IMG/VR virus record: IMGVR_UViG_3300041964_000040
Span: 1-20,047 of that record
Reading direction: 5' to 3' (one strand)
From: a virus
Length of the DNA: 20,047 nucleotides
The position numbers and the translations under genes were made by a program. The notes below the pieces were generated by a model that saw only the letters and a list, made by a program, of their open reading frames with translations, made no database searches and was not told the DNA's origin. This document shows, piece by piece, positions 2,475 to 10,909 of the stretch (position 1 is its first letter; each line of letters opens with the position of its first letter).

Positions 2475-3494
2475 TTACAGCACCACCGCGCCTGCGTGTT
2501 GCTGCGACTCCCACCAGGCGCGCGTGCGTGGTGTCACGTATTGCAGGAAGCGAAGCTTGCCGCCTGAATCGTGGGTGAAGTGAGCGAGGAATGTGTGGCG
2601 TGCATACTGTTCCCACTGCTCGCGATCGCGCACCGAGTTCAGCATATCGGCTTCCTGTTCGAACCCGCCCCTGTGCAGCGCGTTGACCGTGCGCGTCATG
2701 GATTCACCCCGGACGTTCAGCACTTCCGCCCAAACGTGCTCGCAGCGATCAGCACGGATCGCTTCGTTCATCTGCCGCGCGAACTTGTAGTAGTCAGGTT
2801 GCGGCAAGCTGGGGCAGATCATCCCGAACGTGCGGTAGCCGTGGTCCTGTAACCAATGCAGCGAGGCCAGGCGTTTCGAGACAAGCGCGGTGCCTTCCTC
2901 GAAGACCTTCGCGAGCTGGTCATCAAGCGTGCCTGTGCTGACGCCATATATCATCCGATCACGATGCGTTGATAACTGCTCCGCGATCTTTGGCAGCAGG
3001 TTCGATTTCGAGAGCAAGCGAATGTCCCAGTTGGTCAGCTCGAGGATGACGCGACACGCTTCAACCGTCTCGCGGACCAACTCCATGTTCGCGGCGACGT
3101 CGACGAGCGGTGAGCTGTAGATCACCCGGGTGTCTGCCGGGTCTTTGAACTTCGGCCGGCCGGCGCGATCGGTGAGCTCCGCCCGCAAGCGCGCGATCGC
3201 GCCGCTGCGACGGATGACGATATCCTCGTGCGGCGCCGTGATGCCGTGCTTCGCGAGATACGGCTTCTGCTTGTCCATCATGTCGGGGACGTAGCAGAAG
3301 CTGCAGGTGTAAGCGCACGCGGTGCCGGTGCTGAAGGTGAGGCCGTCGCAGAGAAGCTTGTGACCGAACTTCGACTCGAAGTTGATGACGGTCTTCGCGG
3401 GGATCTCGTGCACGGGTTTGCCGTTCATCGTGGCGCGAGGACTACCGTAAATGTTTACGGTATCGGGACCGTTGAAGAGATCGGGCTGGTTCAT
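2475..3494 (-). CDS. Radical SAM protein, spore-photoproduct-lyase-like (COG1533 type)
   Basis: 339 residues. Cys60, Cys64 and Cys67 form the CxxxCxxC motif (CAYTCSFC followed by Tyr) that holds the SAM-binding 4Fe-4S cluster. The spacing and the rest of the barrel (VIYSSPLVD, VILELTNWDI, RMIYGVSTGT) recall the DNA repair photolyase/SplB-like group. Enzymes of this group use a 5'-deoxyadenosyl radical; the substrate here is unknown and could be DNA, RNA or a protein. I chose the ATG at 3494: it overlaps the upstream ATPase stop as ATGA and has AAAGG before it. A GTG at 3524 would add ten residues. Tight coupling to the AAA+ gene suggests a shared task. Family confident, role open. Confidence 0.85.
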   Translation of the reverse strand: MNQPDLFNGPDTVNIYGSPRATMNGKPVHEIPAKTVINFESKFGHKLLCDGLTFSTGTACAYTCSFCYVPDMMDKQKPYLAKHGITAPHEDIVIRRSGAIARLRAELTDRAGRPKFKDPADTRVIYSSPLVDVAANMELVRETVEACRVILELTNWDIRLLSKSNLLPKIAEQLSTHRDRMIYGVSTGTLDDQLAKVFEEGTALVSKRLASLHWLQDHGYRTFGMICPSLPQPDYYKFARQMNEAIRADRCEHVWAEVLNVRGESMTRTVNALHRGGFEQEADMLNSVRDREQWEQYARHTFLAHFTHDSGGKLRFLQYVTPRTRAWWESQQHAGAVVL

Positions 3495-4219
3495 GCTGCC
3501 TTTCTTCCGCGCATCGTTTGCCACGCGCGCTTCGACGCTTCGCTCTTCGTAGGATCGATGACGACGGTCGGTGTCTTCGGCCGGCGCCGAACGCTGCCGA
3601 AGGTGCGGAAGCTGTTAGCATCGAGCAGCGCGGCGCGCACGTTTCCACAACTGCCGGCGGCGATGAAGTTCGCGGTGGCGCGTGGGACCTTCCATTTGCT
3701 GACGAGCCAGGCGGCGAGCTCGTCGGCTTCCGGTGGATCCACTTGTGCCAGCTCGAACCGAGTCTGGAATCGCTCGGTGAGTGTGGCCAGGTCAAGATTG
3801 CTCGAGCCGATGACGGCTGTGCGCTCGGGCAACTCGTCCAGATAGGTGAGCATCAGGTCCTGTGCGAGCTGCGGGATGAGGTCGGCTTCCTCGATGAGCT
3901 TAACCTTCCAGCCGCCGAAGAGTGAGCCGTAGCAGCTCGACTGCTGCCATTGCCTAACGACTTCAATGGTGAGGTTGCGGCCGTTGACCTTCTCGATGTC
4001 GATCGCTCCGGCCGCGAGCTGGCGCGCGATCATCTGCGCGATCGTGGTCTTACCGGCGCCGAACGTTCCGCAGAGGAGAAGCTTAAGCCGCTTATAATGC
4101 GGCAAGCTGGCGATGAGGGACTGCGCGATCGCGCGCGCTGGTCCGATGAGATCAGCCGGTGTTTCCGGCCGGTAGTCGTCAGGCGTTCCCTGACTTTTTG
4201 CGTGTCTGCTTTTTTGCAT
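3491..4219 (-). CDS. AAA+ ATPase, clamp-loader-like
   Basis: 242 residues with a complete AAA+ core. Walker A is GTFGAGKT at 51-58, Walker B is KVKLIEEAD at 105-113 (EE in place of DE), sensor 1 is Asn141 in VIGSSN, and QTRF with Arg154 fits the arginine-finger region. After the core, a helical lid (DELAAWLVSKWKVP, then CGNVRAALLDA) resembles RFC/DnaX clamp-loader subunits. It could load or remodel a protein on phage DNA, or drive the neighbouring radical SAM enzyme. The ATG at 4219 is preceded by AAGAGTAACCC, one of three copies of a shared leader, and lies inside the 3' end of the HTH gene (41-base overlap). The stop overlaps the next start as ATGA. Confidence 0.85.
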   Translation of the reverse strand: MQKSRHAKSQGTPDDYRPETPADLIGPARAIAQSLIASLPHYKRLKLLLCGTFGAGKTTIAQMIARQLAAGAIDIEKVNGRNLTIEVVRQWQQSSCYGSLFGGWKVKLIEEADLIPQLAQDLMLTYLDELPERTAVIGSSNLDLATLTERFQTRFELAQVDPPEADELAAWLVSKWKVPRATANFIAAGSCGNVRAALLDANSFRTFGSVRRRPKTPTVVIDPTKSEASKRAWQTMRGRKAA

Positions 4220-4541
4220 GGGTTACTCTTTTGGCTCTGGCCCCGATTGCAGTCGGTGAAGGTAATTGAGCCTTCGGGCGCGTTTCCTTTCGGTTACTCG
4301 GGAGCGATGCGCCGGCCGGATTTTTCTTTCCGCTCCCGAGGTTGAGATCAATCCGCTGCGCGACCGTGGCGAGCGCCAGGCCACGCGGGCCGTGGCGACC
4401 TTGCTCCCAATCGATGTAGGTCTTCAGCGGCACGCCCAGGCGCGCAGCTGCATCGGATTGGGTGAAGTCGCCGCGGCCGTCGTTCGCGTCGTCGACGCGT
4501 CGCCAGGCTTTCAGCTGAGCGGAGATGATCACGGTTTGCAT
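4179..4541 (-). CDS. XRE-type helix-turn-helix protein
   Basis: 120 residues from an ATG at 4541. Residues about 27-60 form the helix-turn-helix: FTQSDAAARLGVPLKTYIDW followed by EQGRHGPRG, a typical XRE/Cro layout in which a recognition helix precedes a W-E-x-G segment. The remaining 55 residues are Lys/Arg-rich and look disordered, so this half may bind DNA non-specifically or be an extended tail. Likely a phage transcription regulator acting inside the early operon. It starts 12 bases after the small zinc-ribbon gene and overlaps the AAA+ gene start by 41 bases. Confidence 0.75.
   Translation of the reverse strand: MQTVIISAQLKAWRRVDDANDGRGDFTQSDAAARLGVPLKTYIDWEQGRHGPRGLALATVAQRIDLNLGSGKKNPAGASLPSNRKETRPKAQLPSPTAIGARAKRVTHAKKQTRKKSGNA
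4220..4256 (-). promoter_or_regulatory. Shared leader element, copy A
   Basis: In transcript direction a small hairpin CCGA-CTGCAA-TCGG (4256-4243) is followed 23 bases later by the ATG of the AAA+ gene, with AAGAGTAACCC immediately before that ATG. The stem is only 4 bp, but the 6-base loop is identical to the loops of copies B and C. This copy lies within the 3' coding part of the HTH gene. Confidence 0.5.
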
Positions 4542-4553
4542 AGATACGGAACT

Positions 4554-4802
4554 TCAGTGCGTCTGACCACGATTGTTTCGGTCGCAGGAATCGCACACTC
4601 CGGATTTGTCTTCTGACGGCTGGCCGCAGAAGCGGCAGCGGATATCGAGCAGCGTTTCGATACAGCACTCGACGCACACGACGGAGTCGCTGTCGTCGAA
4701 CGCGCTGGCGTCGTGAAGCGTTCCGACTACAGGCGCGTCGGGATCTTCTTGCTGCAGGAGCTCGATCAACTCGCGCACCGTCGGCAGGTCGGTCGTGATC
4801 AT
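4554..4802 (-). CDS. Small protein with C-terminal zinc ribbon
   Basis: 82 residues. The start is the ATG at 4802, chosen because it overlaps the previous stop as ATGA and has AAAGGCG upstream. The first 45 residues (TVRELIELLQQEDPDAPVVG) match the small phage-protein pattern of an ELIELLQ-type helix followed by a short beta strand. The C-terminus has two Cys pairs, CRFC and CDSC, spaced as a zinc ribbon, plus an extra VECC segment. Biochemical role unknown; it may be a nucleic-acid or protein adaptor. Confidence 0.7.
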   Translation of the reverse strand: MITTDLPTVRELIELLQQEDPDAPVVGTLHDASAFDDSDSVVCVECCIETLLDIRCRFCGQPSEDKSGVCDSCDRNNRGQTH

Positions 4803-5032
4803 GACGCATCGCCTTTCGATTGCGCACGGCGCGTGGCTGCGGCTTTGAGCGCGGCTGCTCGTCGCGGGTTGATTGTGGCGGGCGCAGGATCGGGCGCGGT
4901 GGTGGCGATAGTGGCGCGTGGAATGGGCTGCGTGGCGCGCGGTGCTTTGATGCACCGCACGCCGAACGCTTCCCACGCCGCGAGACTGCGCGCCGGTGCG
5001 ACCGGCGGAAGTGGCGTGCGTGAGGATTTCAT
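4799..5032 (-). CDS. Hypothetical small Ala/Pro-rich protein
   Basis: 77 residues from an ATG at 5032 with GAG upstream; a GTG at 5038 overlapping the preceding stop as GTGA is an equal alternative. Composition is Ala/Pro/Arg-rich, with an ordered patch SLAAWEAFGVRCIKAPRATQ and a basic tail. I do not recognise it. Its place within a chain of overlapping genes, and the ATGA overlap with the zinc-ribbon gene, support it being translated. Confidence 0.5.
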   Translation of the reverse strand: MKSSRTPLPPVAPARSLAAWEAFGVRCIKAPRATQPIPRATIATTAPDPAPATINPRRAAALKAAATRRAQSKGDAS

Positions 5033-5034
5033 TT

Positions 5035-5178
5035 TCACTCGAGCCAAAGAACCGCCAGCAGCATCGCGGCGCCGATCAGCTTGCCGAGCTGGTGCGCGAA
5101 GGTGCGGCGCTCCTGGCGGCAGCGATCGCGCTGCAGCTGCTCGCCGATAGTGAGGAGGACGCGCGGGCGTGTGCTCAT
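5035..5178 (-). CDS. Very small single-pass membrane protein
   Basis: 47 residues. It starts at an ATG at 5178 with a good Shine-Dalgarno site (GGAG in AAAGGAGACGC), overlapping the preceding stop as ATGA. The N-terminal half is highly charged (GEQLQRDRCRQERRTF) and the C-terminus is hydrophobic (KLIGAAMLLAVLWLE), giving one short membrane helix with a basic N-terminal side. Function unknown. The size and topology would fit a small phage membrane modulator. Confidence 0.6.
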   Translation of the reverse strand: MSTRPRVLLTIGEQLQRDRCRQERRTFAHQLGKLIGAAMLLAVLWLE

Positions 5179-5423
5179 GCGTCTCCTTTCTCTTCGATCG
5201 TTTCCGCTACGACGGAGAAGGTCACGCGGCCGATGCCGGTGATTCCCCTCGCCCATTCCTTTAGCTTCGTCTCGGCTGCTGCCTGACTCTTCATGAACGG
5301 CGTGCGGTGAATGATGCCGTTCCCATCCGTGTACGAGACCGCGACTTCGCGGCTGTGCTTCAGCTTGTGAGCTGTGATGCGGAGCCGCAGATGCTCCGTC
5401 TTTGGTTTGCCTGATAGCGGCAT
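5175..5423 (-). CDS. Hypothetical small beta-rich protein
   Basis: 82 residues from an ATG at 5423, preceded by AGAAGGAGTAACC (leader copy B). Alternating strands are visible (EHLRLRITAH, REVAVSYTDGNG, VTFSVVAETIEE) with a helix between (AAAETKLKEWARG). I do not recognise a family. The strong leader hairpin and good ribosome-binding site suggest it is well and separately regulated; downstream small genes are coupled to it through ATGA overlaps. Confidence 0.65.
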   Translation of the reverse strand: MPLSGKPKTEHLRLRITAHKLKHSREVAVSYTDGNGIIHRTPFMKSQAAAETKLKEWARGITGIGRVTFSVVAETIEEKGDA

Positions 5424-5471
5424 GGTTACTCCTTCTGGTTAGGCGCGGCCCCGTTGCAGCGAGGCCGCGCC
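5424..5471 (-). promoter_or_regulatory. Shared leader element, copy B
   Basis: The strongest copy. A perfect 9-bp stem, GGCGCGGCC (5442-5450) with GGCCGCGCC (5463-5471), encloses a loop in which CG pairs present the same six bases as copies A and C (TTGCAG on the plus strand, CUGCAA in the RNA). The stem ends 18 bases before the ATG at 5423, and GGAGTAACC precedes that ATG. It is intergenic, after the DUF932 gene. It could also act as a transcription attenuator, but no T-run follows the stem. Confidence 0.6.
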
Positions 5472-5486
5472 GTGGTGGTTTGCTGG

Positions 5487-6458
5487 TTAGTTTGCGCCGA
5501 CGCCTTTGGCGAGGTCCTGGGCGATGGTGAAGGCGCGTTGCTTCACTTCCGCGCCGCGGCCGCTGACGAGGAACCCGAGGTTCTCGCCGGTCTTGTCGTG
5601 ATCGACGTACTCGGTGACCGCGTTGTATGCGCCCCATAGGGAACCGCGCACGCCTTTGATGTCGTGACCGCGTCCGGTGTCGTGCAGCTCGAGCACGCGG
5701 TTTACGGCCTTCGCGGTGATCGGCGCGAGGTCTTCGGCTTTCACGCCGTCGCCCGCGATGACGCGGAGCGTGTAGGAGCGCAGCGCCTTCTCGGTGAGCT
5801 GCTTCTTCACGAATCCGCGGAATGTCTGCTGAATGTCGGTGTAGTAGATGCCCGCCTGCTTCAGCAGTTTGCCGGCGATCTCCAGCTTTCCGGAGACGTC
5901 GCCGATGTGTTGCACGCGCACTTCCGACTGGGTGCCACGCAGCGCCGCATTGAGCGTGTTCTGGCAGACAACGCGGATCGGGGTGAACCGTGCGCGCACT
6001 GCTTCGCTCGTGTCGTGGCCGTTTGTCAGCAGCAGGTACTTGCCGACCACGTCGTCACCGATGATGCGGAAGTCGCCCGGCAGCTTCGCGAGCAACCAGA
6101 CGCGCTCCCCTTTGCCGAGCACGCCCGCGACTTCGTAACGCGCTTTGTCTTTTCCGAAGATGCCGTCAAAGAATGCGAAGGCCTCGCGGTTCTGCAGCGG
6201 CTGGTAGAAGTCGGTCACAATGCCGAGCACGTCCTGCGTGTCGGTGCGTCGGATCGCGAACCGGTTCGGGATGATCACCTTTGAATCGGCGACGGCGATC
6301 GGCGTCTTCTCGACGGTGAAGTCGAGCCCGCCCTTTTTCAGCGCGGTCTTTGAATCGAAGGCGCCGTCAACTTTGGTGCCGAGGCGATGCCACGGGGTCT
6401 CCCCCGCGTAGACGATCGCTGCGGTTCCATCTGCTTTTGTGTTTAGATTATGTGCCAT
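5487..6458 (-). CDS. DUF932 phage/plasmid-like protein
   Basis: 323 residues, the usual full length for DUF932 (TIGR03299) proteins, which are common on phages and plasmids and whose biochemical role is not established. Diagnostic features are the N-terminal ETPWHRLGT segment (residues 20-28), the long beta-rich core, and an RVVCQNTL motif near residue 163 typical of the family. The C-terminus carries SLWGAYNAVTEYVDH, also conserved in these proteins. The start is the ATG at 6458 within GAGTAACCATGG, behind leader copy C. It stands alone between two leaders, so it may be translated independently of its neighbours. Confidence 0.88.
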   Translation of the reverse strand: MAHNLNTKADGTAAIVYAGETPWHRLGTKVDGAFDSKTALKKGGLDFTVEKTPIAVADSKVIIPNRFAIRRTDTQDVLGIVTDFYQPLQNREAFAFFDGIFGKDKARYEVAGVLGKGERVWLLAKLPGDFRIIGDDVVGKYLLLTNGHDTSEAVRARFTPIRVVCQNTLNAALRGTQSEVRVQHIGDVSGKLEIAGKLLKQAGIYYTDIQQTFRGFVKKQLTEKALRSYTLRVIAGDGVKAEDLAPITAKAVNRVLELHDTGRGHDIKGVRGSLWGAYNAVTEYVDHDKTGENLGFLVSGRGAEVKQRAFTIAQDLAKGVGAN

Positions 6459-6496
6459 GGTTACTCTGTTTTGATTGTGCGCCGTTGCAGCGGCGC
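6459..6496 (-). promoter_or_regulatory. Shared leader element, copy C
   Basis: Hairpin with a perfect 6-bp stem GCGCCG (6479-6484) and CGGCGC (6491-6496) around the loop TTGCAG (CUGCAA in the transcript). It ends 20 bases before the DUF932 ATG, and AGAGTAACC immediately precedes the start codon. It lies in a 168-base gap between the Rossmann-protein stop (6627) and the DUF932 start. The rest of that gap shows no gene that I can support. Confidence 0.6.
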
Positions 6497-6626
6497 GGGT
6501 TTGTTTTGGTTGCCCCGATGTTCTCTCGGGATGTGGTGAAGATACGGGACTTCAGTATCTCGCGCGAGTCTTTTCCGCAGGAAATTTTCGCGAGGGAAGA
6601 CGGCGGAAAGACGCCGCCGGAGCGGA

Positions 6627-7202
6627 TCAGATTCGCTCGAGACGGACGCCGATGTATCGCGCGTTGCCGCCGGCGTTCGGCGCTTCGCGACACTCGATGA
6701 TCTCGAACCCGAAGTCGCGCGCCTGCGCGATGCAGGCCACCACCGATGTCTCGGCGATGCGTGCGCCGATCGTGTTCGGAATCTTCAGCCGCTCGAACTT
6801 CAGCCCAAGCGCATTCAGCAGCGCGGAATCCGCATTGCCGCCGCCGATCTTCACCAGGCCGATCGTCAGGAAGACGGTGACGCTGTGCTTTACGTTCTGG
6901 AGGAGCGCGAACCAGTGCTTGAACGGTGACCCGTAGGTGTCGATATCGATCACGTTCTGCTCGACTCCTGGCTGCTCGAGGATGCGAACGCTGTCGATCT
7001 TCAGTCGGCCCTTCTTCGGGTTTAGGTCCACGCCCCAATACGCGACGCCGTCGAACTCGCGCCGGAGTACTCCCCACAAGCGGCCGCTCGCTTGGCAGCA
7101 GTCGAGGACCATTATCATGCCCTCGGTGTGATACTTCCGGAGGAAGTGGCGCCGCAACGCGAGCTTCGCGTCGGGATTATGATTGTCTGTCTTCTTCGAC
7201 AT
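6627..7202 (-). CDS. Small Rossmann-fold protein, possible Trm1-like methyltransferase
   Basis: 191 residues from an ATG at 7202, overlapping the ParB-like gene by 26 bases. Around residues 29-45, MVLDCCQASGRLWG occupies the place of SAM-binding motif I. It is followed by WGVDLNP (the acidic end of strand 2) and, near 93-103, by DIDTYGSPFKHW, which resembles the DPFGSP motif of Trm1-type tRNA guanine N2-methyltransferases. A later strand-helix part (FGFEIIECREAP) completes a class I fold. Motif I is degenerate, so activity and substrate (RNA, DNA or none) are uncertain. The placement beside a ParB-fold protein is a common phage nucleic-acid-modification pairing. Confidence 0.6.
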   Translation of the reverse strand: MSKKTDNHNPDAKLALRRHFLRKYHTEGMIMVLDCCQASGRLWGVLRREFDGVAYWGVDLNPKKGRLKIDSVRILEQPGVEQNVIDIDTYGSPFKHWFALLQNVKHSVTVFLTIGLVKIGGGNADSALLNALGLKFERLKIPNTIGARIAETSVVACIAQARDFGFEIIECREAPNAGGNARYIGVRLERI

Positions 7203-9225: not shown

Positions 9226-9852
9226 CTACTTAGCACCTGCCATGCCGCACGCCGGCAGCAGGATTGTGAACGTCGAGCCGACGTCTTCGGAACTCTGCAC
9301 TTCGACGCGGCCGCCCAGCTCTTCCACCGTCGATCGCACGATCGACAACCCGCGGCCGTGCTCGTTGTCGGCGCTGAGAGTCCCATCCCATAACGTCAGC
9401 AGTTTCTCGGGCGTCATCCCACAGCCAGTGTCGCCGATCGTCACGCCCACCGCGCCAGTCGCCGCAAACGTCGCTAACCGCAGCGTCCCTCCCTTGGGCA
9501 TCGCTTTGCACGCATTGAGGCACAGATTGAACAGCGCCCCGAAAAGCACCGTCGCGTCCCCGATCGGCCCCGCCGGCAGATCATTCGCGCACAACACCTT
9601 CAGCTCGACCGTCGGTCCGGGTAACGCTGCCAGCGCGCTCGCCAGCTGGCCCACCACTAGGTTCAGATCCAGCGGGCCATGACCTGACCGCGATTGCTCG
9701 AACAGCAGCTTCAGCACCTTCTCGATCCGCCCCGCAGCGTCGATGATCTGTCGGAAGCAGTCGGCCGCAGGCTTGCGCTCTTCGAGCCCGCAGTCTGCAA
9801 ACCCGAGGATCACCGTCAGGTGGTTCCGTATCTCATGTGCTGTGTCGAGCAT
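9226..9852 (-). CDS. Minimal histidine kinase (HisKA plus HATPase_c, no sensor domain)
   Basis: 208 residues with a complete kinase core and almost nothing before it. The phospho-acceptor is His6 in AHEIRNHLTVILGFAD, followed by the second dimerisation helix to about residue 55. N-box Asn109 and Asn113 sit in NLCLNACKAMPKGG, the G1 box is DTGCGM at 141-146, and the G2 region is HGRGLSIVR at 165-173. It ends with the usual GSTFTILLPA strand. The codon before the ATG at 9852 is an in-frame TAG, so no sensory or transmembrane region is attached. It lies 67 bases after the replication gene. No response regulator is present in the window. It would autophosphorylate on His6 if active; the partner is unknown. 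Confidence 0.88.
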   Translation of the reverse strand: MLDTAHEIRNHLTVILGFADCGLEERKPAADCFRQIIDAAGRIEKVLKLLFEQSRSGHGPLDLNLVVGQLASALAALPGPTVELKVLCANDLPAGPIGDATVLFGALFNLCLNACKAMPKGGTLRLATFAATGAVGVTIGDTGCGMTPEKLLTLWDGTLSADNEHGRGLSIVRSTVEELGGRVEVQSSEDVGSTFTILLPACGMAGAK

Positions 9853-9919: not shown

Positions 9920-10909
9920 TCACCACAGGTGGAAAGTGCGGCCGAGCTGCTGCGCGATCTTCTGGCACTCCCTGAACAACACAGCGCCGAGTGGCTGCTT
10001 GCGCTTGTTCTTCGGGTTCAGCTCCAGGAGCTTCACGTTCCCTGCTGCCTCACGAACGATCGCTGGGTTGTCGCGCACCCTCCGGATCCAGTTAAACCGG
10101 TTCCGCTCGTGGAAGTCATCGCGATCGCGCGCCGACTTGTGCATCAGCGTCTCCACCAGGCCGAACACATATTCGCGTTCCGGACAGTTGAAGCTCTTCT
10201 TCCGCTCGGACCCGGCGGCAGCCGGCGTCTGCATTGGTGGATCACCAACGGTCACGTATTGCTGTACGTGCAGTGTACGGCTGTTTTGCAATACGTCGCC
10301 CGCACGCGCGTACGCGCGACTCGTTAGGCTGGGCTTTTCGCAGATTGGCGAATCACCAACGCCCCCCGTCGTTGGTGGTTTACCAATTGGTGATTCACCA
10401 ATCCGCCAGTCCGGCTCGGACGCCGCGTCTCTCGCAGCCATTGCGATCCCCTCATTCAAACCCGGCGCCTCGGCCGGCAATGGCAGCTTCCCCTGCCCGG
10501 TAGTCGGCTCGCATCCGGCCGACGCATTCTCATTCAGCTGTTCCAGCTGGTGAGCCCGCTCTATCGCACGTTCCACATCGAACAATGGCTTCCGCTCAGT
10601 CCAGAACGCCGCTGACGGGATGAACGAATACACCCTGCCCTCTTCCTGGACGATGCCCTTGTCCTTCAGCCGCTGCAGCGTGCGTGAGACATCGCCCTTG
10701 TCGATACCCGTCAGATCGACAAACGCCTGCAGCTCCGGAATCACCGCCGACACGCGGCCGCGCGCGAACGAATAATCGATGATCACGTTCGCGATCCGCC
10801 GCTCCCGCTCCGTCACATCGTACATCCGAAGTGAGAGACGGCTCATCTGCTCGAGCTGTTGATAGTAGGCCTCGGTCAAAGCTGGCTTGGACCTCCATCC
10901 CACTCCCAC
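9920..10909 (-). CDS. Phage replication initiator-like protein, winged helix (lambda O-like arrangement)
   Basis: 329 residues. Residues about 20-105 are a MarR/winged-helix DNA-binding domain (ERERRIANVIIDYSFA, LTGIDKGDVSRTLQRLKDKG, VYSFIPSAAFW), typical of the N-terminus of phage replication proteins that recruit the host helicase. The middle (about 130-235) is low-complexity and Pro/Gly-rich because it is encoded by iteron repeats. The C-terminal domain (CPEREYVFGLVETL, FNWIRRVRDNP) is probably the partner-binding part. An origin inside the initiator gene is the lambda O design. The start is uncertain: a GTG at 10909, or a TTG at 10879 that overlaps the ASCH stop as TTGA with GGAGG upstream. 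Confidence 0.75.
   Translation of the reverse strand: MGVGWRSKPALTEAYYQQLEQMSRLSLRMYDVTERERRIANVIIDYSFARGRVSAVIPELQAFVDLTGIDKGDVSRTLQRLKDKGIVQEEGRVYSFIPSAAFWTERKPLFDVERAIERAHQLEQLNENASAGCEPTTGQGKLPLPAEAPGLNEGIAMAARDAASEPDWRIGESPIGKPPTTGGVGDSPICEKPSLTSRAYARAGDVLQNSRTLHVQQYVTVGDPPMQTPAAAGSERKKSFNCPEREYVFGLVETLMHKSARDRDDFHERNRFNWIRRVRDNPAIVREAAGNVKLLELNPKNKRKQPLGAVLFRECQKIAQQLGRTFHLW
10233..10402. repeat. Four dyad-symmetric iterons, candidate replication origin
   Basis: Four related 17-mers built on TTGGTG-N3-CACCAA lie at 10233-10249, 10344-10360, 10371-10387 and 10386-10402 (the last two overlap by two bases). Copies 1 and 4 are perfect dyads; copies 2 and 3 each have one arm mismatch. They lie in the middle of the initiator gene, as lambda iterons lie in gene O, and are the obvious binding sites for its winged-helix domain. 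I see no long AT-rich tract beside them. Confidence 0.72.
10254..10296. repeat. 9-bp inverted repeat between iterons
   Basis: ACGTATTGC (10254-10262) pairs perfectly with GCAATACGT (10288-10296) across 25 bases that themselves contain TGTACGTGCAGTGTACG. Just after it, CGCGCGTACGCGCG at 10305-10318 is a 14-base perfect palindrome. Both lie between the first iteron and the other three. They may be part of the origin (cruciform, or binding of a second protein), although the sequence is also coding. Confidence 0.55.

Follow-up and report, generated by a model that had tools for sequence, protein, structure and literature searches.

Why should three genes on one strand of a viral genome carry, close ahead of their start codons, hairpins that differ in their stems and yet present the same loop? 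The question is raised by a 20,047-bp virus record, a genome fragment that was analyzed at its full length and is called the window here. On its minus strand, an AAA+ gene, an orphan gene of 82 amino acids (82-aa gene), and a DUF932 gene each have the hexaloop CUGCAA on a stem of different sequence, followed by GAGUAACC and the AUG. Contigs related to the window by a radical-SAM alignment include some binned to Opitutae and other Verrucomicrobiota metagenome-assembled genomes (MAGs), so the host of this virus probably belongs to the Verrucomicrobiota.

Two of the three genes can be assigned to a family. The AAA+ ATPase gene (3491 to 4219) is clamp-loader-like, with a match to the PHROG clamp loader at an E value of 1e-13, and the DUF932 gene (5487 to 6458; E value, 2e-50) belongs to a family that is large in phages. 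The 82-aa gene (5175 to 5423) fell into no family: a protein search returned no relative, and a single-sequence fold model with a beta-beta-beta-alpha-beta arrangement, at a mean pLDDT of 71 a low-confidence model, gave no confident match in a structural search. When the AAA+ and radical-SAM proteins were searched against an annotated phage collection, no match was found. Elsewhere in the window, a short open reading frame (9226 to 9852) matches HATPase_c (E value, 2e-17) and HisKA with no evident sensor domain, an unusual finding for a phage, and a gene at 9920 to 10909 has a weak match to phage replication protein O. Inside the O-like gene, at 10233 to 10403, are repeats of the form ATTGGTGNNTCACCAAC, which resemble the iterons of an in-gene origin, by analogy with lambda O.

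An earlier note on this DNA had described three CTGCAA hairpin leaders upstream of three ATGs, and all of them were found as described, on the minus strand. The AAA+ hairpin, CCGA(CTGCAA)TCGG, is a 4-bp stem at 4243 to 4256 with its loop at 4247 to 4252, and the start motif GAGTAACC that follows (4221 to 4228) is set off from the ATG at 4219 by the one extra C that had been reported. At the other two genes GAGTAACC stands directly before the ATG, at 5424 to 5431 for the 82-aa gene (ATG at 5423) and at 6459 to 6466 for DUF932 (ATG at 6458). The DUF932 hairpin, GCGCCG(CTGCAA)CGGCGC, has 6 bp (6479 to 6496, loop at 6485 to 6490), and the same leader has a second hairpin further upstream, TCCCGA(GAGAACA)TCGGGG, at 6513 to 6531. 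Read on the plus strand, the first of these hairpins together with a T-rich stretch (6478 to 6497) scores terminator-like. In the 82-aa gene leader, GGCGCGGCCTCG-CTGCAA-CGGGGCCGCGCC (5442 to 5471, loop at 5454 to 5459) forms 12 bp including one G-U; of the stem lengths of 4, 9, and 6 bp given previously, the first and last stand, and the 9 bp proved to be the outer uninterrupted part of the longer stem.

Spacing is similar in the three leaders, and stability is not. From the end of the hairpin to the ATG there are 23 nt (AAA+), 18 nt (82-aa gene), and 20 nt (DUF932), and from the loop to GAGTAACC there are 18, 22, and 18 nt, respectively. The 82-aa gene leader folds at -28.3 kcal/mol, with a z score of -3.5 against shuffled sequences, and the whole DUF932 leader reaches a z score of -2.6; the AAA+ leader with its 4-bp hairpin is no stabler than shuffles (z score, -0.18), a result that we count against recognition by a trans-acting factor. 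Only in the AAA+ leader, UUACCUU can pair, weakly, with AAGAGUAA in a fold that encloses the hairpin and covers the start motif. If the hairpins were intergenic intrinsic terminators or attenuators, the T-rich stretch that follows the DUF932 hairpin in the plus direction would fit, but no plus-strand gene is evident there and a U run follows none of the three hairpins in the sense direction, making this explanation very improbable.

The three copies exceed chance expectation far and by wide margins, and loop and pre-ATG block coincide at the same genes. CTGCAA followed within 8 to 38 nt by GAGTAACC occurs at exactly three places in the window, which are the three leaders, and a reversed control pattern occurs at none. 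For 25 plausible minus-strand gene starts, hand-picked after the fact and with a motif chosen after being seen, no hexaloop was common to three genes in 3,000 dinucleotide shuffles (49 shuffles had one common to two genes), and the same was true of pre-ATG 8-mers (0 of 3,000 for three genes and 99 for two). Searches of the window with Rfam covariance models gave no match at the gathering score, and relaxing the E value to 5 in the region from 4150 to 6700 gave chance-level matches only.

Outside the window lineage, the exact combination of loop and motif was found only at chance level. An IMG/VR pattern scan for the loop plus GAGTAACCATG returned 105 stretches, and among the loci kept, stems longer than 4 bp were confined to the window copies. 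When sets of 388 and 384 genomes of Verrucomicrobiota were scanned with the pattern, three places were located in total, a chance-level number, with no paired stem seen by eye. In a screen of 18 contigs for shared hexaloops, the window and one other contig, G008, were alone credible, and the remainder look like chance. An AAA+ profile search of Verrucomicrobiota genomes recovered about 30 chromosomal homologues, none with a comparable leader. Four equal-scoring AAA+ homologues in one of the genomes (G626, C1:4506869-4614622; L317, L328, and L333) recur at intervals of about 35.72 kb, a pattern suggestive of four near-identical prophages in tandem or of an artefact of assembly.

One close relative, L195, allows selection on the AAA+ leader to be examined. 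Its AAA+ protein is 75% identical to that of the window, and the orthologous gene keeps the CTGCAA loop, GAGTAACCC, and their position, with the hairpin CCGC(CTGCAA)GCGG. Between the two, an A-U pair of the window stem is replaced by C-G, a compensatory change that maintains the pair. The AAA+ leader (4220 to 4289; 62 of 70 nt identical in L195) sits within the 3' end of the upstream helix-turn-helix (HTH) open reading frame (4541 to 4179, minus strand), an overlap that had gone unmentioned before, and both stem substitutions alter HTH amino acids (T to P and I to S) with pairing retained. In the HTH tail upstream of the AAA+ ATG, all 20 testable conserved codons are identical, compared with 17 of 30 codons of the HTH core and 109 of 171 codons of AAA+ (Fisher P values of 6e-4 and 3e-4), and synonymous changes reappear downstream of the AAA+ ATG. 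Because synonymous sites are frozen in the overlapped HTH tail, the nucleotide sequence itself is constrained over about 70 nt; judged by this comparison, the AAA+ leader is a functional nucleotide element. The L195 hairpin is missing from its centroid structure, which again counts against a trans-acting factor.

These data bear on whether the leaders could reflect descent or coincidence without function, as remnants of old leader duplications combined with a preferred Shine-Dalgarno sequence. Such an origin would suit the presence of three copies, one of them structurally weak, in a single 20-kb fragment, but it has to contend with the absence of triple sharing from 3,000 shuffles, with the synonymous freeze of the AAA+ leader, and with the compensatory change in L195. 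We consider it quite unlikely.

Does the element act as RNA or as DNA? Across four copies, the three of the window and that of L195, every one of the 16 stem cells is paired, and double changes occur at three of the four pair positions; sliding the pairing by 1 to 3 columns leaves at most 50% paired. With four short sequences and four pairs, this covariation test is supportive, not decisive. A constant loop on changing paired stems, along with the frozen synonymous sites, supports action at the RNA level, or at least at the nucleotide level. To that extent the translational operator proposed in the earlier note gains partial support, with a regulator and a direction of control that we can only infer. 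Copies with compensatory stems in related phages had also been named there as a test, and the AAA+ gene of L195 supplies one; the loop occurs in no more than these two phages.

At the DNA level, the near-palindromes would serve a DNA-binding regulator, the HTH protein for example, as operators or as parts of promoters, in the way proposed for the ESAS elements of Cluster K mycobacteriophages, in which putative promoters were later placed (PMC11373665; see also PMC12699233). GCCGCTGCAACGGC is indeed nearly palindromic as DNA. Operators, however, are expected to have conserved half-sites around a free center, whereas the leaders have differing arms around a constant center. All leader copies also lie in one orientation, one stem pair is G-U, a promoter scan of 4100 to 6800 detected no promoter-like site, and a better HTH operator candidate, GATACGG(G/A)ACTTCAGT, is found elsewhere, at 4543 to 4558 and 6541 to 6556. 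We therefore regard a DNA-level element as unlikely. The two GATACGG(G/A)ACTTCAGT copies, one closely preceding the HTH gene and the other the DUF932 leader, are identical at 15 of 16 positions, and similar ACTTCA..GAAGTATC sequences lie at matching places in a more distant relative, G001; seen by eye, this sequence is a candidate operator or promoter of the HTH repressor. Strong promoter-like hexamers were also seen by eye in two relatives, TTGCAA-17-TATAGT in G003 and TTGACA-17-TATTCT in G008, each just upstream of a hairpin of this sort. The hairpins would then lie in the 5' untranslated region, which we count in favor of an RNA leader.

More distant phages show which parts of the module persist. 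The CTGCAA loop was found in two phages only, and in syntenic, more distant phages what is retained is GAGTAA or no more than a hairpin. G001 has the same gene order as the window, with DUF932 and AAA+ proteins that are 76% and 53% identical, and four copies of AGAGTAA in 37 kb, three of which stand directly before starts (DUF932, AAA+, and one small gene), without a CTGCAA loop at these genes. Two G001 genes have a duplicated, longer hairpin leader in which the stems are conserved and the loops differ, and hairpins with unrelated loops lie 20 to 35 nt before the DUF932 ATG in G001, G002, and G003. In G008, TGACAG is the loop and AGAATCC the block of both RadC and AAA+, and the G015 orthologues of these two genes have TGTCAG and AATCC. 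The UGUCAG hairpin of G015 RadC is weak (4 bp, with an A-G mismatch beside the loop), and in both UGACAG and UGUCAG the outer U and G are paired by RNAfold, so these may be GNCA tetraloops instead of hexaloops. We propose that each phage has its own combination of loop and start block and that the two evolve together.

AAA+ leaders share a further feature, a duplicated start block. An extra GAGTAACC at 4292 to 4299, which the earlier note did not include, precedes the one at the AAA+ start by 71 nt and is followed by no start codon; it is also present in L195, and L196 has a GAGTAA pair. Overall, five AAA+ leaders (window, L195, L196, L219, and L227; G000, G004, G001, G008, and G015) repeat the start block peculiar to their phage about 59 to 76 nt upstream of the one at the AAA+ start, and most of them have a hairpin between the two copies.

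The changing loops of these relatives are what a constitutive expression leader would allow. Here, the hairpin would protect the 5' part of the mRNA, the unpaired stretch would offer ribosomes a landing strip, GAGUAA would be a preferred Shine-Dalgarno block, and modules would be copied between genes with no dedicated factor. The unrelated loops of the DUF932 hairpins, the duplicated leaders of G001 with their differing loops, and the normal Shine-Dalgarno spacing of GAG all agree with this explanation, which we hold to be a serious possibility. A stabilizing hairpin needs no constant loop, however, and recent copying should leave stems and spacers alike, whereas in the window both differ and it is the loop and start block that are constant.

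Known phage elements come close to this arrangement. The earlier note knew of no such element in the literature, a remark that calls for qualification, since Cluster K SAS/ESAS elements are nearly the same (PMC3203893) and the T4 gp43 operator pairs a hairpin-loop with the ribosome binding site (PMC3014915). SAS is a block built around a Shine-Dalgarno core and located before the starts of non-structural genes, with an inverted repeat upstream in half of cases, for which its authors saw little support for RNA pairing (PMC3203893). Like the window block, SAS extends beyond 16S rRNA pairing and is repeated in one orientation directly ahead of the ATG in several non-structural genes (here three genes on the minus strand, with a fourth copy lacking an ATG), a subset has the inverted repeat upstream, and the consensus of that repeat varies between subclusters. 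Unlike the window block, GAGTAACC, it has the consensus GGGATAGGAGCCC located 3 to 9 bp from the start codon, a different host, and 11 to 19 copies per genome versus three in the window fragment. ESAS is an imperfect inverted repeat of 17 bp whose arms are conserved and whose spacer varies, whereas the window arms vary yet pair and the center is constant.

The gene 43 operator of T4 and RB69 is similar in layout only: a hairpin with a specific loop closely precedes the ribosome binding site, and the loop has variants among related phages (PMC3014915). It serves one gene, autoregulated by the DNA polymerase gp43 through the loop UAAC, whereas the window has three genes and CUGCAA, which differs from the gp43-type loops UAAC, UAAA, and CAAC. 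RegA, which has about 30 target genes with clamp-loader gene 44 among them, acts at the AUG or immediately ahead of it (PMC3014915), and thus provides a case of one factor controlling many early genes at the Shine-Dalgarno-AUG region; the window, too, has a clamp-loader-like gene, and its block contains GAGUAA where RB69 RegA selects UAA triplets. RegA sites, however, are unstructured and A+U rich, whereas the window has an upstream hairpin and a GC-containing block, and no RegA family match was obtained among the proteins scanned in this fragment. We do not claim membership in the SAS/ESAS, gp43 operator, or RegA families.

Our preferred explanation, to which we give a probability of roughly 45%, is a phage-specific translational leader module recognized by a postulated trans-acting factor; we rank it ahead of the constitutive leader, followed by a DNA-level element, descent or coincidence, and terminators. 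Besides the two structural results noted above, we weigh against it the restriction of the CTGCAA loop to two phages, the weak G015 RadC hairpin, the possible tetraloops of G008 and G015, and the about 30 chromosomal AAA+ homologues with no comparable leader. Each of the three genes would have a cis-acting RNA leader composed of a short hairpin presenting CUGCAA, a mostly unpaired spacer, and GAGUAACC against the AUG as a fixed Shine-Dalgarno/spacer block, and transcription would start upstream of the hairpins. Together, the three modules would tie these early genes into a small regulon. The loop, probably along with the GAGUAA block, would be recognized by an RNA-binding factor of phage or host origin or by a small RNA, and this binding would alter the access of ribosomes to the start codon next to it. 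The existence and identity of this factor and the choice between repression and activation are the parts that we infer. Two guesses at a candidate within the window are the HTH protein, which has a basic tail, and a protein with an ASCH domain (11331 to 10876). A wider and more doubtful extension is that phages of Verrucomicrobiota use phage-specific RNA "addresses" (CUGCAA/GAGUAACC, UGACAG/AGAAUCC, and UGUCAG/AAUCC), each read by a coevolving cognate RNA-binding factor, so that the early replication genes of every phage would form a translational regulon of its own.

Detailed knowledge of post-transcriptional control in phages comes from few systems, such as T4 and the RNA phages. Start-site elements are known in phages; what sets this one apart from SAS/ESAS, in the copies compared, is that the arms change and still pair. 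A regulatory role for these leaders is plausible, and most likely they switch or tag three early genes, setting the timing or strength of their translation. If the proposed module is real, it would represent a regulon of start-site elements whose loop is specific to the phage, in a group of phages that has hardly been studied, and it would add a second line of evidence on SAS-type elements, which have been unexplained since 2011. It would also point to a new RNA-binding factor and offer an orthogonal part for translation control.
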